49,347 nt of DNA from Myxococcales bacterium (GTDB lineage Bacteria; Myxococcota_A; Polyangia; Polyangiales; Houyiibacteriaceae): contig JAHBWH010000047.1 in NCBI GenBank assembly GCA_019637115.1, forward strand, positions 1-49,347, written 5' to 3'. The translations under genes were made by a program, and so were the position numbers. Numbering within the stretch: position 1 is the first letter of the stretch; the number at the start of each line of letters is the position of its first letter. The notes under the pieces are model-generated. The model did no database searches, was not told where the DNA came from, and was given only the letters and a program-made list of their open reading frames with translations. This document shows, one piece after another, positions 37,838 to 49,347 of the stretch.

Positions 37838-37913
37838 GGTGGCTGTAGCTCAGTGGTAGAGCACTGGATTGTGGCTCCGGTTGTCGCGGGTTCGATCCCC
37901 GTCAGTCACCCCA
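37838..37913 (+). tRNA. tRNA-His (GTG anticodon)
   Basis: A full cloverleaf can be drawn. The acceptor has the extra G-1 paired to C73 that is specific to tRNA-His, giving GGTGGCTG against CAGTCACC with one G-T pair. The D-loop has AGCTCAGTGGTAGAGC, the anticodon loop TTGTGGC reads GTG, and the T-arm has GGTTCGATCCC. CCA is encoded. First of three tRNAs read in the same direction. Confidence 0.95.
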
Positions 37914-38000
37914 CCGCTCCTCGCGGGCGTTCCTTGACAGGCAGGTTAGGTGAGGTAGAGAAGGCGCCCCTTCGGGGTCGTTCTTTCTTCGGATGGCCAT

Positions 38001-38077
<77 letters not shown>

Positions 38078-38125
38078 AGCTCCAAGCTCGGCTGGACTTC
38101 GGTGCCGGCTCCTTCCTTGCCGGCA

Positions 38126-38166
38126 TCCTTCGATGCCGGGTCCTTCGATGCCGGGTCCTTCGATGG
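38126..38166. repeat. 15-base tandem repeat between tRNA-Arg and tRNA-Lys
   Basis: Units of TCCTTCGATGCCGGG start at 38126 and 38141, with a third partial copy from 38156 that diverges after TCCTTCGATGG. The preceding CTCCTTCCTTGCCGGCA is a degenerate relative. The repeat sits in the spacer between mature tRNAs, so it would be removed during processing. Confidence 0.8.
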
Positions 38167-38195
38167 AGGCTCCTCACCCTAACGGCCAATCATCC

Positions 38196-38271
38196 GGGTC
38201 ATTAGCTCAATTGGTAGAGCAGTGGATTCTTAATCCATTGGCTTCAGGTTCAAGTCCTGAATGACCCACCA
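38196..38271 (+). tRNA. tRNA-Lys (CTT anticodon)
   Basis: The acceptor GGGTCAT pairs with ATGACCC, then A and an encoded CCA. The D-arm is AGCTCAATTGGTAGAGC, the anticodon loop TTCTTAA contains CTT (reads AAG), and the T-loop is GGTTCAAGTCC. Last tRNA of the cluster; its final base is also the first base of the terminator stem. Confidence 0.95.
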
Positions 38272-38344: not shown

Positions 38345-39316
38345 TCACCGCACCACGGGCAGCGCGACGCCTCTCGGGGTCCCGCGGGCGAGCGGCGATG
38401 CGAGCGACCCCACGCCGGTGAAACCTCGCGCGAGCGGCTCGTCATCCGCGCCGCGCGCGCCGCCGGGCGCGAGCGGCCTGAGCTCGTCGCCCCCGAAGCG
38501 CCGCAGATAGATGGCGTCGACGCCGACGCACGACGTCCGCTGCCCGCAGCCGTCGCACCGCGGGGCGAACGCGCGCGTGTCCATGGGTACGGGTCGTACG
38601 ATCGAGCGGGCCGCGAACGCGCCGAGCAAGCAGCGCGGCGCGCCGCTCACGTACGCCGGCAGCCCGAGCCGGCGGGCCACCTCGATCGCGTGCAACGCGA
38701 AGGGCACGGCGAGCGCGAGGCGCGGGTGGACACGCGCGAAGTCTCGCTCCGCCGCGCCTCGACCGATGGGCAGCGCGAGGTGCCACCCCGCCACCCCACG
38801 CGCGAGGAGCACGAGGGGCACCTCGTTGAGCACGCGGTAGGACGAGCGCGTCACCAGCGTCGTCACGAGCAACCGAAGGCGCGCGGCGCGCGCGCTCGCC
38901 GCGCCTTCCCAGAGGCGCTCGAAGCTACCCGCGCGACCCGTGTGGTGATCGTGCGATCCCGGGTCGGGCCCGTGGAGCGAGAGGTGGACGTCGGTCAGCC
39001 CCGCCCCAGCGAGCGCAGGCGCGAGCGCCGAGAGGGCGTGACCGTTCGTCTGCAGGACGATCCGCTCGAAGCCCGCGGCGCGCGCTTGGGCGACCGCGTC
39101 GACGAGCGAGTCCGCCTCGAGCGTCGGCTCCCCGCCCGAGAGCGTGACCTCCCGCGCGCCGGTCATGCGGAGCGCCGCGAGCCGCTCCGCGACGCTCGTC
39201 GCCAGCTCCGCGTCGTCGAAGCCACAGAAGACACACTGGTTGGTGCACCGCCCGCTGAGCGTGATCGTCGCGGACGTGAGGGTCGCGGTGCTGGTCGTCA
39301 CCGGGATGCTCGTCAC
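38345..39316 (-). CDS. Radical SAM protein with C-terminal Cys motif
   Basis: 323 residues from GTG at 39316, the first usable start in frame. The [4Fe-4S] cluster ligands are C24-x3-C28-x2-C31 in GRCTNQCVFCG. SGGEPT is the SAM-binding motif, and VLQTNG and LSLHGPDPGSHD follow the radical SAM barrel. Near the C-terminus C254-x2-C257-x5-C263-x-G (CDGCGQRTSCVG) precedes YLRRFGGDELRPLAP. The same motif recurs in the three radical SAM proteins at 42784-49066. It may bind an auxiliary cluster, as SPASM/twitch domains do, but it is shorter than SPASM. The gene starts 21 bases after the stop of a Tat-exported protein gene, and is probably co-transcribed with it. A relation to the His-Xaa-Ser cluster is likely from sequence but not proven. 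Confidence 0.88.
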   Translation of the reverse strand: MTSIPVTTSTATLTSATITLSGRCTNQCVFCGFDDAELATSVAERLAALRMTGAREVTLSGGEPTLEADSLVDAVAQARAAGFERIVLQTNGHALSALAPALAGAGLTDVHLSLHGPDPGSHDHHTGRAGSFERLWEGAASARAARLRLLVTTLVTRSSYRVLNEVPLVLLARGVAGWHLALPIGRGAAERDFARVHPRLALAVPFALHAIEVARRLGLPAYVSGAPRCLLGAFAARSIVRPVPMDTRAFAPRCDGCGQRTSCVGVDAIYLRRFGGDELRPLAPGGARGADDEPLARGFTGVGSLASPLARGTPRGVALPVVR

Positions 39317-39337: not shown

Positions 39338-39841
39338 TCATCCCGCGGGCGCGACGACGGTCGACGTGACCGCAAACATCCCATCGGGGAAGCGCGTGCG
39401 GCGCTCTTCGAAGGTCGCGAGCGCAGGCAGCGCCACACCCGCGCGGGCTCGACGCTCCAGCGCCGCACCGAGCGCGCGCGCGCCACGCTCTTCGACCGGG
39501 TCGGTCGCGCGGCGCCCATGGTCGTGCAGGAAGAGGCTGAAGTGCTCGGTGTTGTGCACGCCCGCGCGTCCCTCCGGGTCGCGTCGGAGCACGTCGACCT
39601 GGAAGCGCGCCTCGTCGAGCCGCAGCACGAAGGGCAGCGCGCCGTAGTGCAGCCCGTACGCCGCCACGACGTCGTACCCGCCAGCGAGCGCGAGCTCGTG
39701 AGAGATCGGGCCCGCCGGGACGAGCCCCGGACGAGCCAGCGCGACGGCTCCGCGCGGTGCGTCGGCGCGCGCGACGCGGAAGGCAGAGAGCGCGAGCGGA
39801 GCCACTCCGAGCGCGGACAAGAAACGACGCCGCTGCAGCAT
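39338..39841 (-). CDS. Tat-exported hypothetical protein
   Basis: 167 residues from ATG at 39841. The N-terminus MLQRRRFLSALGVAPLALSA is a twin-arginine signal (R-R-x-F-L) with cleavage likely after ARA. The mature part has HYGALPFVLRLDEARFQVDV and HNTEHFSLFLHDHGRRATDP, with several His and Asp that could bind a metal or cofactor, which would fit export in a folded state. I do not recognise the family. It is followed at 21 bases by the radical SAM gene, so it may be a substrate or partner of that enzyme. That is inference. Confidence 0.7.
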   Translation of the reverse strand: MLQRRRFLSALGVAPLALSAFRVARADAPRGAVALARPGLVPAGPISHELALAGGYDVVAAYGLHYGALPFVLRLDEARFQVDVLRRDPEGRAGVHNTEHFSLFLHDHGRRATDPVEERGARALGAALERRARAGVALPALATFEERRTRFPDGMFAVTSTVVAPAG

Positions 39842-40072: not shown

Positions 40073-42409
40073 ATGTCGCGGTATACGTCGGGGCGATGCG
40101 CGGGGCTGTGCGCGTGTCTGATCGTGCTCGGCACGATCGGCTGCGGCGCGAAAGGTCGAATGGGAACGGATGCTGGGTTGAGCGACGCCAGCACCTCCGA
40201 CGTTTCCGTCGACGACACCGGCGTCGATCCGATGGACGCGGGGCACGACGCGGGCACGGACGCGGGGCCGTCGATGAGCGCAGAGACGTGTGAGGCCTGC
40301 GAGGTCCACGGAGACTGCGTGGTTGGATCGTATTGCATCCCGTTGACGGTCGGCGGGCGCGCGTGCTTGCCCGGCTGCAACCCCGATCTGCCCAGCTGCC
40401 CGCGCAGCTTCAACTGCGTGCTCGACATCGCGAGCGGCGTGGACACGCCGATCTGCGTCCCCGTGGGCGGGACCTGCTGCGTCGACGAGGACGCCGACGA
40501 ATATGGTCAAGGAGTCGGATGCCTCGGCCCCGACTGCGACGACGACGATCCGGAGATCAACCCTGGCGCCCCCGAGCGCTGCAACGGCGTGGACGACGAC
40601 TGCGACGGCGTGGTCGACAACCCGCCCACGGACTGCCAGTCGGGCCGCTGCGACGGCAGAGGCGACGGCCGCTACGAGTCGATCTCGGGCGCTCCCTGCG
40701 TCGACGCGACGTGCGGTGATGGCGTGGTCGTCGAGTGTGGCCTCTTCACCTGCAGCGGCGGGGGCGAGGAGGGCAACCGCTGCGCGTCGACCTGCCTTCG
40801 CGACGACATGGACGACGACGCGCTCTGCATCGCCGCCGCGCACTGCGAGGCGGGCATCTGCGTCCCCGACGTCCCGAACGGCGGCGTCTGCACCCAGGAC
40901 CGGCAGTGCGTCTCGGGCCACTGCGACAACGGCTTCTGCTGCGAGACGGGTCGTTGTTGCAGCGCGGCCAGCGACTGCGGGAGCCCCGACGCGGCGATCT
41001 GCAACGACACGATGCGTTGCCAAGGCACGCGCGGCGACGTGAGCTGCGAGGACAACATGTGCCGATCACGCTCGGGGATCGAAGACGACTCGGGCTGCAC
41101 CTCCACTACCCGCGCGCTCACCTGCGGCAACTACCGTCCCGTCTTCTGCACGGGTGCCGTGAGCCAGACGCCCCCCTCGTGTCCGACGAGCTGCCTCGCC
41201 GACTCGGAGTGCGTCGACGGCGCGCACTGCGAGCGCATCGGCGCCGCTCCGGGCATCTGCTCGCTCGATCGCGCGCCGGGCTTCTCCTGCACGCGCAACC
41301 CCGAGTGCCAGGCGGGGCTCTTCTGCGTGGACGGCGTCTGCTGCACCTCGACGTGCAGCGGCACCTGCGCGGCCTGCAACCTGGCGGGGAGCCTCGGTAC
41401 CTGCTCGCCGATCCCCGTGGGGCAAGACCCAGCGAACGAGTGCCTCGGCTTCTCGTGCGCGGCCTACCACTCTGGGTTCGGCCCCGGGGAGAACACCTGC
41501 TTCCGTCACCGGGACGTGACCAACATGCAGGCCGTCTGCAACGGCGCTGGCGCCTGCGTCGGCCCCGAGACCCTCTGCCCGCTGCAGATCCGCGACCCCC
41601 AAGCGCAATGTCACGCGATCTGTCAGACGCCGACGGCGGGGACGTGTGGCTTCATGAACCCGGGCGCGTGCACGGACCTCGGCGCGGCGGCGGGGACCCA
41701 GAGCTGCGGCACCGGCGCGTGCCGACGCACCATCGATCAATGCACGGGCGGAACGCCGAACACCTGCATGCCTGGCACGCCGACCGCCGAGGTCTGCAAC
41801 GGTGTCGACAACGACTGCGACGGGGTCGTCGACAACGGCAGCCCCGCCAGCCTCTGCCCCCCGCCGCCCAACACCGCCTCGACGATGTGCGCGGGCGGGA
41901 TGTGCTCGTTCACCTGCGCGACGCGTTGGTTCGACGTCGACGGCGTCGCGACCAACGGCTGCGAGTGCCAGGACGACACGACGTCGAACGCCTGCACCGC
42001 GCCGACGTCGCTCGGGTCGATGTCGGTCGGCGCGGCCGACATCGTGGTCAATGGCGTCATCCCGACGTCGATGCAGGAGGACTGGTACAGCATCTCCTTC
42101 CCAACCGGCGCCCGCGGCCCCGGGTTGGGGGTCCCGCAGATCGCGCTGACCGGCCCGAACGCGGGGAACTTCGTCCTCGGCTTCTTCACGAGCTGCGCGA
42201 CGAACGTCACCTGCGGAGAGGGCTCGGCGACCGGCGTCGGGTCGTACAGCTTTCGCGACAACGCCTCGATACCGGGCCCACGGGCCTACACGGGGCCGCA
42301 CTCGGTCAGCTGGCCGACGACCGTCATCTTCCGTGTCACCCGCACGGGCGCGGCCGCGAGCTGCGCCGCCGCGTCCTATCAACTCACCATCCGCAGGCCC
42401 GGCTCGTGA
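40073..42409 (+). CDS. Cys-rich lipoprotein with MopE-like metal-binding repeats
   Basis: 778 residues from ATG at 40073, with GGGGAGG a few bases upstream; an in-frame ATG at 40043 is less likely. Signal peptide with lipobox: CACLIVLGTIGC. An Asp/Gly/Ala-rich linker follows (MDAGHDAGTDAGPSM). The body has many Cys pairs of the C-x-x-G-x-C-C type seen in myxobacterial surface proteins. Two copies of the MopE/PF11617 motif are seen: CDDDDPEINPGAPERCNGVD then DDCDGVVDN, and EVCNGVDNDCDGVVDNG. The last 130 residues look like a beta-sandwich (PPC-type) domain. Probably an outer-surface lipoprotein binding Ca or Cu. It directly precedes the peptide gene on the same strand, with 93 bases between, but this family is common in myxobacteria and a link is not required. 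Confidence 0.85.
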   Translation: MSRYTSGRCAGLCACLIVLGTIGCGAKGRMGTDAGLSDASTSDVSVDDTGVDPMDAGHDAGTDAGPSMSAETCEACEVHGDCVVGSYCIPLTVGGRACLPGCNPDLPSCPRSFNCVLDIASGVDTPICVPVGGTCCVDEDADEYGQGVGCLGPDCDDDDPEINPGAPERCNGVDDDCDGVVDNPPTDCQSGRCDGRGDGRYESISGAPCVDATCGDGVVVECGLFTCSGGGEEGNRCASTCLRDDMDDDALCIAAAHCEAGICVPDVPNGGVCTQDRQCVSGHCDNGFCCETGRCCSAASDCGSPDAAICNDTMRCQGTRGDVSCEDNMCRSRSGIEDDSGCTSTTRALTCGNYRPVFCTGAVSQTPPSCPTSCLADSECVDGAHCERIGAAPGICSLDRAPGFSCTRNPECQAGLFCVDGVCCTSTCSGTCAACNLAGSLGTCSPIPVGQDPANECLGFSCAAYHSGFGPGENTCFRHRDVTNMQAVCNGAGACVGPETLCPLQIRDPQAQCHAICQTPTAGTCGFMNPGACTDLGAAAGTQSCGTGACRRTIDQCTGGTPNTCMPGTPTAEVCNGVDNDCDGVVDNGSPASLCPPPPNTASTMCAGGMCSFTCATRWFDVDGVATNGCECQDDTTSNACTAPTSLGSMSVGAADIVVNGVIPTSMQEDWYSISFPTGARGPGLGVPQIALTGPNAGNFVLGFFTSCATNVTCGEGSATGVGSYSFRDNASIPGPRAYTGPHSVSWPTTVIFRVTRTGAAASCAAASYQLTIRRPGS

Positions 42410-42502
42410 GCGTCCGCGTCGAGATGGTATACCTTTCACGTTGGGCTCCCGAGCGGGCGCCCCTTTCCGAGGTTCCCCCCGCGCGACGGGGCCGGAGGCG
42501 AG

Positions 42503-42781
42503 ATGGCCGACAAGAACGATGATCTTCCTAGCTTCACCCGCAAGGCGGGCGGCCTGATGCAGCCCACCGAGCGCGCGATCGCCGATCGGGCGCGGGAGGA
42601 AGCCGACGCCGCGCGACCCGACCCGCAGGACGAGATCCTCCTGGCGCAGCATTGCTCGCACGGCTCGCACGGCTCGCACGGATCCCACGGGTCGCATGGG
42701 TCGCATGGGTCGCATGGGTCGCATGGCTCGCACGGGTCCCACGGATCCCACGGGTCCCATGGGTCCCACGGGAGCTGGTGA
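42503..42781 (+). CDS. His-Xaa-Ser repeat precursor peptide (candidate RiPP substrate, HxsA-like)
   Basis: 92 residues from ATG at 42503 with GGAGG four bases upstream. Residues 1-49 form a charged, helical leader-like part: MADKNDDLPSFTRKAGGLMQ, then a Glu/Arg/Ala-rich helix ending DPQDEILLAQ. From His50 to Ser91 the protein is 14 uninterrupted His-Xaa-Ser triplets: the first is His50-Cys51-Ser52 and the other thirteen are His-Gly-Ser. It ends with Trp92. There is no signal peptide. The stop overlaps or abuts the first radical SAM gene. A short leader plus a repetitive core followed by modifying enzymes is the pattern of ribosomally made, modified peptides. The known His-Xaa-Ser (Hxs) systems pair such a repeat protein with two radical SAM enzymes. 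A TATACC at 42428 could be a -10 element. Modification type and product are unknown. Confidence 0.88.
   Translation: MADKNDDLPSFTRKAGGLMQPTERAIADRAREEADAARPDPQDEILLAQHCSHGSHGSHGSHGSHGSHGSHGSHGSHGSHGSHGSHGSHGSW
42656..42772 (+). repeat. Thirteen 9-base units encoding Ser-His-Gly
   Basis: The array codes for thirteen Ser-His-Gly units. Codons vary (TCG/TCC, CAC/CAT, GGC/GGA/GGG), with three adjacent units identical (TCGCATGGG, units 5-7). Variation only at synonymous positions means the amino acid pattern has been kept while the DNA drifted, with some recent duplication in the middle. Confidence 0.95.
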
Positions 42782-42783
42782 AG

Positions 42784-43818
42784 GTGAAGGCGCTCGCGCA
42801 CGAGCCCAGCATCGACGAGCGGATCGCCCGCAAGGACGAGCGGGTCCACGTGCTCACGGGCGCGGTGTGCAACAACAACTGCATCTTCTGCATGGAGGAG
42901 GATCGTGACGGTCGCTACGTCACGAACAGCCAAACCGACGACGCCCTCGTCCGCTTCATCCTCGAGCAGAAGAAGGGAGCCGAGGAGATCTGCTTCACCT
43001 CTGGCGAGCCGACGACCAACCCGCGGCTTCCCCACTGGGTGCGCTGGGCCAAGGAGGCCGGGATCCCCCGCATCAGCGTGATGACCAACGGCCGCGCGCT
43101 CTCCTACGAGAAGTACGCGCGGGCGCTGATCGCAGCCGGGATGAACCGGTTCTACGTGAGCATCCACGGGCACGACAAGAAGCTCCACGAGAGCCTCACG
43201 CGCACCCCCGAGAGCTTCGAGCAGACCGTCGCCGGGCTCGACGTGATCACCAAGTACAAGCGCTACGGCGTCGAGCTCCACACGAGCACGGTGATCACCA
43301 AGCGCAACCTGCCGCACATGACGGAGATCTATCGCTTCCTCCGCTCGCACGGCGTCGATCAGGTCGTCTTCAACGTGATGCAGGCCAACGGGCGCGCCGA
43401 CACCTACTTCGAGCGCATCTTCCCGACCTACACCGAGATCGCCGGGACGGCGCGGCGCTTCTTGGAGGAGCAGATGCGGGTCGAGCCGCAGGTGATGGCC
43501 TTCTTGGTCGACATCCCGCTCTGCACGACGACGGCGCTGCCGGACTTCAACCGCGGCTACGTCGAGGCGTACGTGCACTACGAGCCGGCCGCGAACGCCG
43601 AGAAGCTCGTGTCGGTCGACGCGCTGCTCGGTCGCCGCGAGGTGGGCGCCGACGATCGCGAGCTCGTGGCGATCCGCCGCGCCGACCTCGACGACTCCGA
43701 GCGGCAGAAGCGCGCCGAGTGCGCGACCTGTCGGCACGAGGCGACCTGCGAAGGGGTCTGGGGCAACTACCTCCGGCGCTATGGCTGGGACGAGTTCGTC
43801 CCCGTACCGCCGCAGTAG
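42784..43818 (+). CDS. Radical SAM maturase adjacent to the His-Xaa-Ser peptide
   Basis: 344 residues from GTG at 42784, placed eight bases after GGGAG; a GTG at 42778 that overlaps the peptide stop (GTGA) is an alternative. Cluster motif C29-x3-C33-x2-C36 in AVCNNNCIFCMEE; FTSGEPTTNP is the SAM-binding site; ISVMTNG and FYVSIHGHDKKLHESLTRTP follow the barrel strands. The C-terminal C313-x2-C316-x5-C322-x-G (CATCRHEATCEG) with NYLRRYGWDEFVP repeats the motif of the other radical SAM proteins here. Such enzymes form C-C, C-O or C-S links, epimerise or cleave peptides using a deoxyadenosyl radical. Immediate linkage to the peptide gene makes that peptide its likely substrate. Confidence 0.93.
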   Translation: MKALAHEPSIDERIARKDERVHVLTGAVCNNNCIFCMEEDRDGRYVTNSQTDDALVRFILEQKKGAEEICFTSGEPTTNPRLPHWVRWAKEAGIPRISVMTNGRALSYEKYARALIAAGMNRFYVSIHGHDKKLHESLTRTPESFEQTVAGLDVITKYKRYGVELHTSTVITKRNLPHMTEIYRFLRSHGVDQVVFNVMQANGRADTYFERIFPTYTEIAGTARRFLEEQMRVEPQVMAFLVDIPLCTTTALPDFNRGYVEAYVHYEPAANAEKLVSVDALLGRREVGADDRELVAIRRADLDDSERQKRAECATCRHEATCEGVWGNYLRRYGWDEFVPVPPQ

Positions 43819-43826
43819 GCCCCCGC

Positions 43827-43947
43827 GGCAGCAGGGCCCTGTGGCAGTAGGGCCCTGTGGCAGTAGGGCCCTGTGGCAGTAGGGCCCTGTGGCAGTAGGG
43901 CCCTGTGGCAGTAGGGCCCTGTGGCAGTAGGGCCCTGTGGCAGTAGG
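43827..43947. repeat. 16-base tandem repeat between two radical SAM genes
   Basis: Seven full units of GGCAGTAGGGCCCTGT (the first has C for T at position 6) plus a partial eighth. Each unit contains the palindrome AGGGCCCT, so single-stranded DNA or RNA could fold in many registers. The 3' end of the upstream gene, GCAGTAGGCCCC with its TAG stop, resembles the unit, so the array may have grown from that gene end. There are no spacers, so it is not CRISPR. The array ends 33 bases before the next start codon. Confidence 0.95.
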
Positions 43948-43980
43948 CTGGGCCGCCGCGCGCTGTTACCCTCCCAACGG

Positions 43981-45843
43981 ATGTCCACGCTCACGCAGTC
44001 CACGCCGTCCCACGGCACCGATGAGGTGCAGAAGGTGGTCGAGCACGAGGCGGCCGCGCACGAGAAGCGCAACTGGGTGCGCCTGACCTTCGACTGCAAC
44101 AACCGCTGCATCTTCTGCCTCGACTCGGACACCCACGACGGCCGGATGCGCGACCGCGAGGAGGTCAAGCAGCAGATCCTCGAAGGCCGCCGGGCCGGCG
44201 CCACGCGCCTCATCCTCTCGGGGGGCGAGCCCACCATCCACCCGAGCTACGTAGACTTCATCAAGCTCGGCAAGCGCGCCGGGTACACGAAGATCCAGAC
44301 CGTCACCAACGGTCGCCTCTTCCAATACCAGGACTTCCTCGACCGGTGCATCGCGGCGGGCCTCGACGAGATCACCTTCTCGCTGCACGGCCCGAACGCC
44401 CGCATCCACGACGCGCTCGTCGGCGTGAAGGGCGCGTTCGAGCAGGAGAGCGCGGGTCTGCGCCGAGCGCTCGCGACGCGGGACCGCACGGGAAAGCCGA
44501 TCGTCAACGTCGACATCGTCATCAACCGCGCGAACGTCCGACACCTGCGCGAGATGCTCGACCTCTTCATCTCGTGGGGCGTGCACGAGTTCGACCTGCT
44601 GCAGGTCGTCCCCTTCGGGCGCGCGTTCACCGAGGGGCGCACCACGCTCTTCTACGACCTCGAGGAGATGCAGCCGCACCTGCGCGAAGCCTTCGAGTAC
44701 ACGAAGCGGCCGGGCATGCACATCTGGCTCAACCGCTTCCCGCCCGCCCACCTCGAAGGCTTCGAGCACCTCATCCAGGATCCCTACAAGCTCAACGACG
44801 AGGTGCGCGGCCGAAAGGAAGAGTTCGCGCGGCTGCTGACGACGGGAGAAGACCTCGACTGCCGCGAGAAGGACGGGCGCTGTCGCTACTGCTATCTCGA
44901 GCAGCTCTGCAACCACCTCTATGACGAGCGCGACCGCGTCGCCGAGGCGCGCTTCACCCGCGTGCGCGTCGAGAGCGAGGCGCGCCGCCCGGTCGTCTTC
45001 GGCGGCGACCCCGCGAGCGCCAAGCGCGCGGTGCACTTCGGCGGGCCCGCCGAGGGCGAGCCGGAAGCGACGCGGCGGCACCTGCCGCTCCTCGCTCCGA
45101 CGGTCGGGCAAACCTCCGCGCCGCCCGCGCGCAGCCTCGACGAGCGCCTCGAGCACGCTGGCGTGACGTTCGGCTGGATCGTCGCGCCGAACCTCGAGCG
45201 CGCCCGCGCCGCGCTCGCCGCGCACCCGAGCCTGCGCGAGCTCGAGCTCGAGCTCGAGCAGCTCGACGGCCTCGCCGACGCGCTCGACGGCGACACGCTC
45301 GACGGCCGCGTCGTGCGCGCGATCCACGCCCAGACGGCCGAGGAGGCCGAGGCGCTCCTGGCCCTCCCCGGCCGCTTCGAGGTGGTGCTCGCGCTGCGCA
45401 GATCGACCGAGGCGTGGCTGCTCGCGCTGAGCGACCCCGATCCCCGCCTCGTCCTGCGGCAGCGCACGCACGAGCGCCTCACCGAGTCCGCCGAGGACGA
45501 CGTCGATCTCGGCGCGTTCTTTGCCGCCTTCCGCCACGACGTGCCGGTCGTCGGGGTGCCGGCCTGCGTCCTCGGTCGCTCTCCGCGCGTCGAGCCGCCG
45601 ACGCTCGACGCCGCGATGCTCGCGCCCGAGGGAGCGCTCGAGATCTTCCGCTTCACCCAGCGGCACATCGAGGCGGGCTATTTCACGAAGGCGCTCCGGT
45701 GCGGGGGGTGCGCCCGCGACGCCGAGTGCCGAGGTCTCCACGTCAACTACGTGCGCGCGCACGGCTACGACGTGATGAAGCCCATCGCCCCCGACGCAGA
45801 CACGCACCCCGAGGGGCCCGACGGAGCGCTCGCCGCAGAATGA
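43981..45843 (+). CDS. Large radical SAM protein with added C-terminal domain
   Basis: 620 residues from ATG at 43981; no clear ribosome site. Residues 30-320 hold a radical SAM core: C39-x3-C43-x2-C46 (CNNRCIFC), ILSGGEPTIHPS, VTNGRLFQ, FSLHGPNARIHDALVG and VVPFGRAF. Cys-rich segment at residues 294-310 (C294, C301, C304, C310; CRYCYLEQLC) may bind a second cluster. After a linker, residues 380-620 form another domain without a CxxxCxxC site. It ends with C574-x2-C577-x5-C583-x-G (CGGCARDAECRG) and NYVRAHGYDVMKP, the same tail as the smaller enzyme. The extra domain could recognise the peptide or be a decayed second barrel. The stop overlaps the HExxH gene start (ATGA). Likely a second maturase for the His-Xaa-Ser peptide. 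Confidence 0.92.
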   Translation: MSTLTQSTPSHGTDEVQKVVEHEAAAHEKRNWVRLTFDCNNRCIFCLDSDTHDGRMRDREEVKQQILEGRRAGATRLILSGGEPTIHPSYVDFIKLGKRAGYTKIQTVTNGRLFQYQDFLDRCIAAGLDEITFSLHGPNARIHDALVGVKGAFEQESAGLRRALATRDRTGKPIVNVDIVINRANVRHLREMLDLFISWGVHEFDLLQVVPFGRAFTEGRTTLFYDLEEMQPHLREAFEYTKRPGMHIWLNRFPPAHLEGFEHLIQDPYKLNDEVRGRKEEFARLLTTGEDLDCREKDGRCRYCYLEQLCNHLYDERDRVAEARFTRVRVESEARRPVVFGGDPASAKRAVHFGGPAEGEPEATRRHLPLLAPTVGQTSAPPARSLDERLEHAGVTFGWIVAPNLERARAALAAHPSLRELELELEQLDGLADALDGDTLDGRVVRAIHAQTAEEAEALLALPGRFEVVLALRRSTEAWLLALSDPDPRLVLRQRTHERLTESAEDDVDLGAFFAAFRHDVPVVGVPACVLGRSPRVEPPTLDAAMLAPEGALEIFRFTQRHIEAGYFTKALRCGGCARDAECRGLHVNYVRAHGYDVMKPIAPDADTHPEGPDGALAAE

Positions 45844-47096
45844 GCGCGGGTGAGCCGACCCACCTGCCTCCGGCGTCGACCTCCGCGTCGCTCGAGCCGA
45901 CGCGCCCGCTGGCCGAAGCTCTCGGCGCGTCGGGCCTGGTGCTCGATGAGCCAGGCGCGCGCGTCGACGACCACCCCGCGCCCAGCCCTCGGCTCGCGAG
46001 CCTTCGCCGGGCCGAAGCGTGGCGTCTGCTCAAGGCGCACGCCGGTACGGGAGAGCGCCACGTCGCCCGGGCGCTCGCAGACCTCGCCCGACGCGCGCCC
46101 GACGAGGCCGCCGCCGTCCTGCTCTCACCGATGGCGGCCGTGCTCGCGCGGACCGGGCGCGCGCGCGAGGCAGCGCCGACGTGGGCGCTGGAGCTCGCGC
46201 GGCGTAACGCCCTCGGCGCGCGCTACCCGCTGCGCGACGCGACGGTCACGAACCTCGCGCTCGGGGTCGAGCTCACCGTCGGCGAGGGCGCGCTCGAGGA
46301 CGGCGCGCTCGTGCTCGGCGGCGGCGACCGCATCTGGCTGACCCCCGAGGCGCTCGGCGACCACCCCTGCGCCCGTCGCGTCATCCACCCGCTCGGTCCG
46401 GGCGTGTACTTCGCCGAGGTCGACCCCAACCCCTTGGCGATGCACGAGGCCCACCCCGACAAAGCGGGCAACGCGCTCTCCCTCGGCGACCACCCGCCCT
46501 CCGCCTGGATCGACGCCCTCACGGCCGCGCTCGGCCTCGTCGAGCGCCACCTCCCGAGCGTCGCGCGCGACCTCCGCGCGCTCGACACGGTGCTCCTCCC
46601 CGTCGGCCACCGCGACGACGCGCACCTCTCGGCGTCGTACGCGGAGTACGTCGGCGCCGCCTACCTCACGCTGCACCCGAGCCCGACGACCTTGGCCGAG
46701 GCCATCGTGCACGAGCACCAGCACAGCAAGGCGAACCTCGCGGGCTTTCACGACCCGCTGCTCGAGAACGCCCACTCGACCCGGGTGGTCTCGCCGGTGC
46801 GGCCCGACCTGCGCCCGCTCTGGGGGGTGCTGCTCGCGGTGCACGCCTTCGTCCCGGTGGCAGAGCTCTACCTCCGCCTCGAGGCCGCAGGCGGCGCGCG
46901 GGTCCACGCGCGGCTCGTCGACGTCGTCTCGCGCAACGACGAGGGCCTGGCGACCTTGCGCGAGCACGCGCGGCCGACGCCCGTCGGCGCCATGATCCTC
47001 GCGGAGCTCGAGGCTTGGCACGAGGCGCACCTCGTCGCGCTCGCGGAGCGCGGCCTCGCGCCCGAGCGCACGGAGGCACCTCGATGGGAGGGCTGA
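45840..47096 (+). CDS. HExxH-motif peptide modification protein
   Basis: 418 residues from ATG at 45840, overlapping the previous stop by ATGA, so translation is coupled. The metal site is H291-E-H-Q-H295 in AEAIVHEHQHSKANLAGFHD, followed by PLLENAHSTRVVSPVRPDLR then PLWGVLLAVHAFVPVAELYL. This matches the HExxH domain of RiPP gene clusters (known beside FxsB-type radical SAM maturases). As I recall, members of this family have been shown to be iron and alpha-ketoglutarate dependent peptide beta-hydroxylases, including on His. No signal peptide or zinc-protease prosegment is visible, so a secreted protease is unlikely. Here hydroxylation of His or Ser in the repeat is a reasonable guess. The end overlaps the next gene by 13 bases. 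Confidence 0.88.
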   Translation: MSAGEPTHLPPASTSASLEPTRPLAEALGASGLVLDEPGARVDDHPAPSPRLASLRRAEAWRLLKAHAGTGERHVARALADLARRAPDEAAAVLLSPMAAVLARTGRAREAAPTWALELARRNALGARYPLRDATVTNLALGVELTVGEGALEDGALVLGGGDRIWLTPEALGDHPCARRVIHPLGPGVYFAEVDPNPLAMHEAHPDKAGNALSLGDHPPSAWIDALTAALGLVERHLPSVARDLRALDTVLLPVGHRDDAHLSASYAEYVGAAYLTLHPSPTTLAEAIVHEHQHSKANLAGFHDPLLENAHSTRVVSPVRPDLRPLWGVLLAVHAFVPVAELYLRLEAAGGARVHARLVDVVSRNDEGLATLREHARPTPVGAMILAELEAWHEAHLVALAERGLAPERTEAPRWEG

Positions 47097-49066
47097 AGGC
47101 CGGGGTCCCCGTCGCGCGCTCGCGCGCGTCGACCACGCGCGAGCGCGCGACGTCAGCGCCCCCGATCGCGCCGTGGGCGGTGGGCTGGCGAGGGCGCAAG
47201 GCGCTGCTGAAGGTGGGCTACGGGTGCAACGAGAACTGCACCTTCTGCCACACGGCCGACGTGCGACACGTCGACGGCACGCACGGCGAGGTCGTCGCGA
47301 AGATCCGCCGCGCCGCCGAGCTCGGACACGGCATGGTGGTCTTCTCGGGGGGCGAGCCGACGATCCGCGGCGAGCTCCTCGAGTGGGCGGCCCTCGCCGC
47401 GAGCCTGGACATGGACACCGGCCTCGTCACGAACGGGCTCGTGCTCGCCTACCCCGACGTCGTCGACGCGCTCTGCGCGCGGCGTCTGCGCTACGTCTAC
47501 ATGTCGCTGCACGGCGTCGGGCGTATCCACGACCGCCTCGTCCGCAGCGAGTCGTGGGAGGCGGCCTACCGGGCGGTCGGGAACCTCTCGGGGCGCGGGA
47601 TCGATCTCACGCTGAACTGTGTCGTCACCAAGCAGAACCTCGAGCACCTCGTGCCGCTGGTCGACGCAGTGCTCCCCTTCTCGGATCTCCGGCTCAAGTT
47701 CTCGATGGTCCAGCCGAAGGGCGGCGGCGCGCGGCTCTTCGACGGCCTCACCGCGCGCGTCACCGACGTCGCCGCGCGCGTCGCCGAGGCGATCGCGCAT
47801 GGCGCGCGCGCGGTCGCCGAGCGCGGCGCCGCGGGGCCCTCGTTCGGCCACGATGGCATCCCGCACTGCCTCTTGCCGGAGCTCGAGGGCCTCTACGACG
47901 ACCTCAAGACACACCGCTTCGCGACGATGAGCGACGTCGGCGAGCCCGACTACTTCCCCGTCGACGAGGAGGCCAACGTCCAGCCCGAGGAGACCTGCGG
48001 CGGCTGCGCGCGGCGGGGTCCCTGCCCGGGGCTCTACCGCGGCTACGCGGAGCGCTTCGGCACGAGCGAGCTGCGGCGCCCGCCGCCCGCGCCACGCTCG
48101 AACTCGTTCACGTGGACCTTCGAGGCGCAGGTCGCCTCGCGCGCGTCGGACGATCACTGCCCGCTGCGCGACGGCGCGCTCGGTGTGATCCCGTGGGACC
48201 GCGGCCGCGAGCTCTTCGTCCGCCATCACGTCCCCGCCGAGGGCGGCTGGCGGATCGCGCGCTTCCGCGCCGACACGCGCGACTTCGACGACCGCGAGAT
48301 CGTGGCGACCAAGCACGCGCTCGGGCAGGCCTACCTCGACGTCTCGCGCAAGCCGGCGCCCGACGACTTCGCGCGGGACCTCCGGCCGCTCGCGCGGAGC
48401 GCGCTCTGCAGAGGCTGCGCGCACGCAACGCGCTGCACCGGGCTCTTCGAGCCCCGACTCGACGACGACCCCTTCACCCGCGACGACGAGCTCGTCCGCG
48501 AGCTCCTCCGCGGCCTCGAAGGCGACGTGCTCGACCTCGGCTGCGGCGAAGGGCCCTACGAGGACGTGTGGGCGCCCCGCGTCCGCGCCGGTCACGTCCG
48601 CTACGTCGGCGTAGACCCCCACGCCGACCTCGACGCGCTCCGGCGCCGCTGGCCTTGGGCCACCCTCCACGAGGGCGAGGCGGAGTCGCTCGCGCTCGAC
48701 GCGCGCTTCGACCACGTGCTCGTGCTGCGCAGCTGGAACCACTTCGCCGATCCAGGAGAGGTGGTCCGGCGCGTCGCGGAGCGGCTGCGCCCCGGCGGCA
48801 CGCTCCTGGTCGTCGACAACGTCGCCTTCGGCCTGGCCCGCACCCGCGCGCACGCGCGCGTCGCCGAGCGCGGCCCCGCGCGCTTCGAGCACTTCCGCAA
48901 CGACGACGCGGAGGCCGCCGCGCGCGTGATCGCGAGCGCGACCGACGCCCTCGTGCCGACCCTGCGGCGCGACGTCGGTCCAGGGACCGCGAACCAATGG
49001 CTCCTGCGCTACGCGCGCGCGGCAGACGCGCCGGACGCCGACACGCCGAGCGAGCCGACCGGATGA
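47084..49066 (+). CDS. Radical SAM protein fused to a SAM methyltransferase
   Basis: 660 residues from ATG at 47084, with GGAGG about eight bases upstream, overlapping the HExxH gene by 13 bases. Cluster motif C48-x3-C52-x2-C55 (CNENCTFCHTAD), then FSGGEPTIRGE, LVTNGL and MSLHGVGRIHDRLV. Two C-x2-C-x5-C-x-G sites follow: C305 (CGGCARRGPCPG, with YAERFGTSELRRP) and C442 (CRGCAHATRCTG). From about residue 475 comes a class I methyltransferase: VLDLGCGEGPYEDVW, YVGVDPHADLDAL, HVLVLRSWNHF and LRPGGTLLVVDN. The fusion suggests sequential radical chemistry and N-, O- or C-methylation of the same peptide. Its stop overlaps the next start by ATGA. Confidence 0.92.
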   Translation: MGGLKAGVPVARSRASTTRERATSAPPIAPWAVGWRGRKALLKVGYGCNENCTFCHTADVRHVDGTHGEVVAKIRRAAELGHGMVVFSGGEPTIRGELLEWAALAASLDMDTGLVTNGLVLAYPDVVDALCARRLRYVYMSLHGVGRIHDRLVRSESWEAAYRAVGNLSGRGIDLTLNCVVTKQNLEHLVPLVDAVLPFSDLRLKFSMVQPKGGGARLFDGLTARVTDVAARVAEAIAHGARAVAERGAAGPSFGHDGIPHCLLPELEGLYDDLKTHRFATMSDVGEPDYFPVDEEANVQPEETCGGCARRGPCPGLYRGYAERFGTSELRRPPPAPRSNSFTWTFEAQVASRASDDHCPLRDGALGVIPWDRGRELFVRHHVPAEGGWRIARFRADTRDFDDREIVATKHALGQAYLDVSRKPAPDDFARDLRPLARSALCRGCAHATRCTGLFEPRLDDDPFTRDDELVRELLRGLEGDVLDLGCGEGPYEDVWAPRVRAGHVRYVGVDPHADLDALRRRWPWATLHEGEAESLALDARFDHVLVLRSWNHFADPGEVVRRVAERLRPGGTLLVVDNVAFGLARTRAHARVAERGPARFEHFRNDDAEAAARVIASATDALVPTLRRDVGPGTANQWLLRYARAADAPDADTPSEPTG

Positions 49067-49347
49067 GCCACGCCGAGCCCGAGCGCGGCGCGACGCCGAA
49101 CGCGCGCCTCCGTCACGCCATCGCGCTCGCCGGGCGCCGCGCGCTCGCGGGGGCGCGCGCGCAGGCTCGGGCCGCGCTCGACGAGGCGCCGGACGATCCG
49201 CTCGTCGCGACGGTTGCGGGTCTCGTGCTCTTCGTCACGCGGGACTACGGCGAGAGCCTCGACGCGCTCGCGCGCGCGGCCGCGCTCGGCGCCCCTCCGC
49301 GGGTCCACTGGCTCCGTCGCGAGCGGGCCGCGAGGCTCGGGTGGGAG
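49063..49347 (+). CDS. TPR-like protein, N-terminal part (runs off the right edge)
   Basis: 95 codons from ATG at 49063, overlapping the previous stop (ATGA), with no stop before the edge. The sequence is made of Ala/Arg/Leu-rich helices: RHAIALAGRRALAGARAQAR then AALDEAPDDPLVATVAGLVL and GESLDALARAAALGAPPRVH, the spacing of tetratricopeptide repeats. The HExxH protein upstream also has TPR-like helices at its start. It may scaffold the peptide or the enzymes. Nothing more can be said from this part. Confidence 0.65.
   Translation, partial: MSHAEPERGATPNARLRHAIALAGRRALAGARAQARAALDEAPDDPLVATVAGLVLFVTRDYGESLDALARAAALGAPPRVHWLRRERAARLGWE

Follow-up and report, generated by a model that had tools for sequence, protein, structure and literature searches.

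The stretch of DNA analysed here, called the window, is the whole 49,347-nucleotide contig C377 of genome G000 (8.9 Mb) of a Myxococcales bacterium; coordinates given without a contig name are window positions. Its right end carries, on the + strand, a gene for a short peptide made of His-Xaa-Ser triplets, followed in this order by genes for a radical S-adenosylmethionine (SAM) protein, a larger radical SAM protein, a HExxH protein, a radical SAM-methyltransferase fusion and a TPR-like protein. An earlier note, made from the sequence alone, had described this array and proposed it as a candidate new pathway for a ribosomally synthesised and post-translationally modified peptide (RiPP). Inspection of the open reading frames (ORFs) confirmed the 14 triplets, the gene order, the common strand and the TPR-like gene.

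The HxsA4 precursor and the genes behind it

The peptide gene (42503..42781, +) encodes an HxsA4 precursor of 92 residues (114.9 bits with the NCBIfam model NF038313, cut-off 55). Residues 1-49 form the leader (MADKNDDLPSFTRKAGGLMQPTERAIADRAREEADAARPDPQDEILLAQ) and, by unit count, the core (42650..42778, +) consists of one HCS unit, 13 HGS units and a terminal Trp. The 14 units are encoded by nine different 9-mers, and the codon differences between neighbouring units are synonymous in 15 cases and non-synonymous in a single one, which is HCS against HGS. Over 72 distinct precursors, adjacent units show 1408 synonymous and 78 non-synonymous differences. Therefore, the repeat is not due to chance, and purifying selection acts strongly on the HGS units. 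These 72 precursors contain 8 to 59 units (1048 of 1124 units are HGS, 61 HCS, 8 HAS, with few others); HCS is the first unit among the precursors listed, the terminal Trp is found in 72/72 and the leader motif LPxF......L....R.IS...A is conserved. The divergent precursors of loci L138, L228 and L250 harbor an RRDF-type signal resembling twin-arginine (Tat) signals within their leader, and the leader of the L251 precursor has a hydrophobic stretch. One locus, L197, encodes two HxsA4-type precursors of 35 and 59 units, the usual range being 8-20.

The first radical SAM gene encodes HxsC4 (NF038332, 633.1 bits, cut-off 500), in which the core Cys residues as well as C249, C315, C318 and C324 are invariant. 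It extends on the + strand from 42778 or 42784 to 43818: with the first start, a GTGA overlaps the stop codon of the peptide gene, and with the second, the two genes are separated by two bases, as had been noted before. A gap of 162 bp separates HxsC4 from the larger radical SAM gene, rS2, and contains a near-perfect 16-bp tandem repeat (GCAGTAGGGCCCTGTG, 8.5 copies, 43812..43947, no strand) that includes GGGCCC and that was found nowhere else in the 8.9-Mb genome. The region 42380-44050 was scanned for sigma-70-type promoters and intrinsic terminators, and none was found. From 43981 onwards all genes overlap, by 4, 13 and 4 bases in agreement with the earlier reading: rS2 (43981..45843, +), the HExxH gene HEX (45840..47096, +), the fusion gene rSMT (47084..49066, +) and the N-terminal part of the TPR gene (49063..49347, +; ORF and TPR domain match), which is cut by the contig end.

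The earlier note saw no HxsD at this locus, and the 49-kb window indeed contains neither an HxsB nor an HxsD gene. However, the same genome encodes both on the 6677-bp contig C210, whose gene order is TPR (cut), HxsD, HxsD-like (HxsD'), HxsB and a MopE-type secreted protein. HxsB (C210 2787-4325, -) reaches 534.8 bits (cut-off 370) and is 85% identical to HxsB of the related genome G173. The HxsD-like protein scores 66.4 bits (cut-off 41) and HxsD 49.5 bits, i.e., 0.5 bit under its cut-off of 50, HxsD of G173 scoring 52.3. The secreted protein encoded directly downstream of HxsB (L180, 2-2353, -) is a second protein of this type and has six MopE-type motifs and a DUF4114 domain. In relatives, HxsD, HxsD-like and HxsB genes directly adjoin HxsA4. 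Both contigs break off within a TPR gene, the window with ...RLGWE at its end and C210 with ERAGALLDEVLEARPDEP... at its start, and codon boundaries and TPR register match. Since these ends agree in frame and register, and since the order rSMT-HxsD-HxsD'-HxsB is frequent in relatives, C210 probably follows the window and the truncated TPR gene probably continues on it. The operon would then read HxsA4-HxsC4-rS2-HEX-rSMT-TPR-HxsD-HxsD'-HxsB. To check this join, homologous TPR genes were sought in relatives, but the compared loci contained none for either TPR fragment.

Putative modification enzymes and companion proteins

Three radical SAM proteins of the window, rS2, rSMT and rS4 (the last one encoded upstream of the peptide), fall under every NCBIfam cut-off. 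HxsC4 or HxsC gives the best profile match of each, above MoaA, PqqE and other housekeeping radical SAM families. In a tree of 60 radical SAM domains, each family forms a separate clade, the joins between families being deep and partly unsure. The earlier note would have abandoned its proposal if these proteins had grouped with housekeeping families and if the peptide had not been conserved beside them; tree, profiles and neighbourhoods (see below) point the other way.

The rS2 protein has a radical SAM domain (NF038332, 115.5 bits, under the cut-off) followed at the C-terminus by a second, barrel-like domain that has a separate C...CxxCx5C motif. Its AlphaFold model (predicted local distance difference test, pLDDT, 79.7; predicted template modelling score, pTM, 0.80) gave Foldseek matches that include the two-barrel proteins 1pii and TrpC. 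The last ~51 residues match the C-terminus of HxsC4 (hhalign probability 91). Beyond them, no sequence match to the radical SAM half was found and we rejected the idea that this domain is a full degenerate radical SAM copy.

In rSMT, a radical SAM domain (PF04055) is joined to a class I methyltransferase domain (PF13489), and two four-Cys modules (C262/C305/C308/C314 and C359/C442/C445/C451) are present besides the radical SAM barrel. Such extra four-Cys modules suggest auxiliary iron-sulphur clusters. Its AlphaFold model (pLDDT 89.4) resembles radical SAM RiPP maturases according to Foldseek, the methyltransferase domain being near NodS-type methyltransferases. RiPP radical SAM methyltransferases are divided into classes A-C (PMC11285071). 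Like them, rSMT combines a radical SAM domain and predicted methyl transfer in one protein, but it has a class I methyltransferase domain instead of a cobalamin or HemN-like domain; its only Pfam domains are the two mentioned above, without the cobalamin-binding domain of class B. The C-terminal half of rSMT (second Cys module and methyltransferase) also occurs as a separate match adjoining rS2 in three genomes (G057:C91:63038-63979, G103:C4:81730-82635 and G116:C1:869100-870032). Hence, some lineages may encode in two pieces what is fused in the window.

By sequence, HEX belongs to the alpha-ketoglutarate HExxH-type peptide beta-hydroxylases (ChlH, BpmH, PflC/PosC), since it passes TIGR04267 (81.3 bits, cut-off 40) with an intact HExxH motif. 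This motif, HEHQH (residues 291-295; 46710..46724, +), has H291, E292 and H295 invariant in 12/12 sequences. Among solved proteins, its sequence matches 22nu (E 3e-21) and ChlH 8s5f (E 6e-12). The largest known group of these hydroxylases is fused to a radical SAM domain (PMC12636437), whereas HEX and rS2 are encoded by separate ORFs, so that HEX is a stand-alone protein and not a fusion of the ChlB-ChlH type; its presumed substrate also differs, being a His-Gly-Ser array. In the related enzyme ChlH, the residues hydroxylated are His and Asp of a cyclophane formed beforehand, and PflC/PosC work on stretches in which one residue is repeated (PMC12636437), which would fit the His repeat as a target of HEX.

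The combination of radical SAM domains and auxiliary Cys modules acting on peptides also recalls the cyclophane maturases FxsB, ChlB and GrrM, ChlB being likewise paired with a HExxH enzyme. However, the radical SAM proteins of this genome reach no cut-off of the listed cyclophane families. For instance, HxsB scores 33.9 bits (cut-off 370) with the FxsB-type model TIGR04269, which is absent among the 25 best matches of the radical SAM proteins of the window. No solved Hxs structure was found: the nearest to HxsC4 is the cytosylglucuronate decarboxylase 7vob, the nearest to HxsB is the radical SAM protein 5wgg and there was none for HxsD.

Three further genes lie directly upstream of the peptide gene, and relatives of all three occur at other HxsA4 loci. 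The closest (40073..42409, +) encodes a Cys-rich secreted protein with MopE-type motifs (PF11617, E 8e-14) and a conserved C-terminal domain that recurs in proteins of other Hxs loci. Only two clear copies of this domain exist in the whole genome; the sole other good copy belongs to a short lipoprotein-like gene (G000:C427:27862-28176, -), which we discarded as a further Hxs site for want of Hxs genes nearby. Next come dTAT (39338..39841, -), a small protein with a twin-arginine signal (MLQRRRFLSALG...), and its partner rS4 (38345..39316, -). The RR motif of dTAT and the following L..G are kept in the family, which matched no Pfam or NCBIfam family. The rS4 protein, with CxxxCxxC and a C-terminal CxxCx5C, resembles HxsC and HxsC4 (80 and 74 bits, both under the cut-offs). 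Genes for tRNA-His, tRNA-Arg and tRNA-Lys (37839-38271) are located directly beside rS4; the proximity of tRNA-His to a His-rich precursor is probably a coincidence. Elsewhere in the genome, contig C378 (L259, 6991-10259, -) encodes a B12-type/radical SAM double enzyme that is 81% identical to its counterpart in G173. It is followed by an f13-like radical SAM gene, with more radical SAM-like genes within 10 kb.

Conservation and co-inheritance of the gene set

Neighbourhoods were compared for 80 loci around HxsC4, HxsA4 and rSMT, plus 71 rSMT-related loci from named genomes, which include Plesiocystis pacifica, Enhygromyxa salina, several Nannocystis, Polyangium, Paraliomyxa and an uncultured Sandaracinus. 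At distances of up to about 10 kb from rSMT, and with many contigs ending before 10 kb, we found HxsD at 33 loci, HxsB at 30, HxsA4 at 29, rS4 at 24, dTAT at 22, rS2 at 21, HEX at 17, HxsC4 at 15 and the C-terminal domain of the Cys-rich secreted protein at 8. The common order is rSMT-HxsD-HxsD'-HxsB-HxsA4, often followed by HxsC4. A complete-looking HxsA4 pathway was also found in Elusimicrobia (L251), where HxsB, a 29-unit HxsA4, rSMT, the B12-type/radical SAM double enzyme and further radical SAM genes lie together. The association therefore reaches beyond the phylum, which suggests horizontal transfer of the whole set.

In a phylum sample of 379 genomes (HxsC4 counted at E <= 1e-60), HxsA4 is present in 52/52 genomes with HxsC4 (P 6e-27) and in 41/41 genomes with rSMT (P 9e-21), and so is HxsB. 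Furthermore, HxsA4 occurs in 120 of the 126 genomes with HxsB (odds ratio 278), the HxsA4 matches in genomes without HxsB being mostly weak. The class sample comprises 66 genomes, 41 with HxsA4 and HxsB and 25 others. The former carry rS2 and the B12-type/radical SAM enzyme in 40/41 cases each, rSMT in 38/41, HEX in 37/41 and HxsC4 in 33/41; among the latter, rS2 was found in 1/25 and each of the four other genes in 0/25. This pattern of presence and absence is also consistent between genera of the family to which the genome belongs. The genes may be clustered or dispersed: in G173 a stretch of about 30 kb contains them, and in G339 they are megabases apart (HxsA4 at 13.0 Mb, HxsC4 at 4.07, rSMT/rS2 at 5.05 and HEX at 12.64). 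Thus, the His-Xaa-Ser peptide recognised by the earlier note, together with extra radical SAM, HExxH and methyltransferase enzymes, is conserved as a set in many genomes.

A probable expanded HxsA4 pathway

The classical HxsABCD system of Haft and Basu is described as a repeat precursor with two radical SAM enzymes and HxsD. The locus shares this logic, but its genes stay under the cut-offs of the classical models (10.6 bits for the peptide with the HxsA model TIGR03979, cut-off 121.65; 87.3 bits with the HxsC model TIGR03977, cut-off 267.9). The nearest known system is the HxsA4/HxsC4 subtype (NF038313, NF038332, TIGR03978 for HxsB, TIGR03976 for HxsD and NF038315 for HxsD-like), since the precursor, HxsC4, HxsB and HxsD-like all exceed the cut-offs. 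The profile searches suggested by the earlier note thus placed the peptide, the first radical SAM protein and HEX in HxsA4, HxsC4 and TIGR04267, respectively. With the core pair already modelled in NCBIfam, its candidate new pathway is new only in its extension by added radical SAM, HExxH and methyltransferase enzymes. To this subtype, the genome adds rS2, rS4, HEX, rSMT and the B12-type/radical SAM double enzyme, none of which is described as an Hxs part by any NCBIfam model that they matched. In the literature searched, HxsABCD appears in mere mentions of names, and HxsA4 and HxsC4 are not mentioned. The larger enzyme set and its inheritance as one package across the class appear to be undescribed in these sources.

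We consider it rather probable that the locus encodes an expanded HxsA4-type Hxs RiPP pathway, in which the HGS array would undergo several kinds of change (beta-hydroxylation, methylation and radical modification) for export. That most of these enzymes belong to one HxsA4 maturation pathway is very likely, and any particular bond type is graded much lower. The gene content, the family assignments, the co-inheritance and the selection on the repeats are observed; the substrates of the enzymes, the order of steps, the chemistry, the export and the function are predicted as follows. HxsA4 would be made as a leader and a core of 14 HxS units with a terminal Trp, and HxsD and HxsD-like (from C210) would probably help to present the leader. 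HxsB (from C210), HxsC4, rS2 and rS4 would perform leader-guided radical chemistry on the His/Gly/Ser units, cross-linking being our best guess. HEX would follow with a hydroxylation, for which C-beta of His is the most likely site, and rSMT would contribute radical chemistry together with methyl transfer by its class I methyltransferase domain. A further probable member of the pathway is the B12-type/radical SAM double enzyme of contig C378. Export of the product is probable, given the Tat signals in dTAT and in some divergent precursors. Because of the His array, it may bind metal through modified imidazoles, which is the weakest step of the scheme. More tentatively still, and with somewhat less than even confidence, the set may define an undescribed RiPP class. 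In this class, at least six enzymes (HxsB, HxsC4, rS2, rSMT, the B12-type/radical SAM enzyme and the HExxH hydroxylase) would act repeatedly on one HGS tract to yield a periodic polyimidazole rod with multiple modifications, meant for export and metal handling, the set being inherited as a unit by the myxobacteria of this class even with genes megabases apart.

Several points weigh against this interpretation. No recognised transporter or protease gene lies within the cluster, the HxsA4 leader of the window has no evident signal peptide, HxsD of this genome falls half a bit short of its cut-off and the C377-C210 join is itself deduced. The literature searched yielded no biochemistry of any Hxs enzyme. 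Moreover, the sampled genomes are related by descent, and the negative set comprises just 25, mostly smaller, genomes that happened to be listed. Finally, co-inheritance cannot distinguish direct modification of HxsA4 from a linked function.

The alternative that survives best, albeit an unlikely one, is that two pathways adjoin here: a standard HxsA4-HxsB-HxsC4-HxsD pathway and a separate rS2-HEX-rSMT module with an unseen substrate. The 162-bp gap with its tandem repeat between HxsC4 and rS2 would fit such a boundary, as would the genomes in which rSMT-rS2 is far from HxsA4, e.g., Polyangium and G339. However, no second precursor was seen, rSMT lies directly upstream of HxsD-HxsD'-HxsB-HxsA4 in many relatives and, in the class sample, rS2, rSMT and HEX never occur without HxsA4 and HxsB, except for one rS2. 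It is more doubtful still that HxsA4 is modified by HxsB and HxsC4 only and that the extra enzymes act on exported companions, i.e., the MopE-type secreted protein or dTAT. Such a role could be suspected from the position of the secreted protein directly upstream, from the recurrence of its C-terminal domain at Hxs loci and from the pairing of dTAT with rS4. Nevertheless, the secreted protein has no repeated candidate core, and its domain was found at only 8 of the compared loci, while HxsA4 is almost always accompanied by rSMT, rS2 and HEX. A collagen-like (Gly-X-Y) structural protein in place of a RiPP precursor, with unrelated radical SAM neighbours, is a very improbable reading of the HGS tract: Pfam Collagen (E 5e-7) and phage collagen-like tail fibres do match the repeat, but the HxsA4 family scores 115 bits, leader included, the unit, which lacks proline, is fixed as HGS, leader and terminal Trp are conserved and HxsA4 is present in nearly all genomes with HxsB, as counted above. 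Lastly, an independent pathway without HxsD and HxsB, in line with the view of the earlier note that HxsD is missing, would rest on the absence of both genes from the window; it is refuted at the genome level by the three genes on C210, whose counterparts in the nearest relatives adjoin HxsA4.

Hxs systems have long had a name, yet no description of a product or of a chemistry turned up in the literature searched. The present locus leads to a parts list for a much elaborated Hxs form: a near-invariant unit, an array with set ends (usually HCS at the start, Trp at the end), and an enzyme set defined by its co-inheritance in 41 genomes. Hence, the action of Hxs radical SAM enzymes becomes open to direct experiment, and the enzyme set suggests that several kinds of modification may be combined on one imidazole array.

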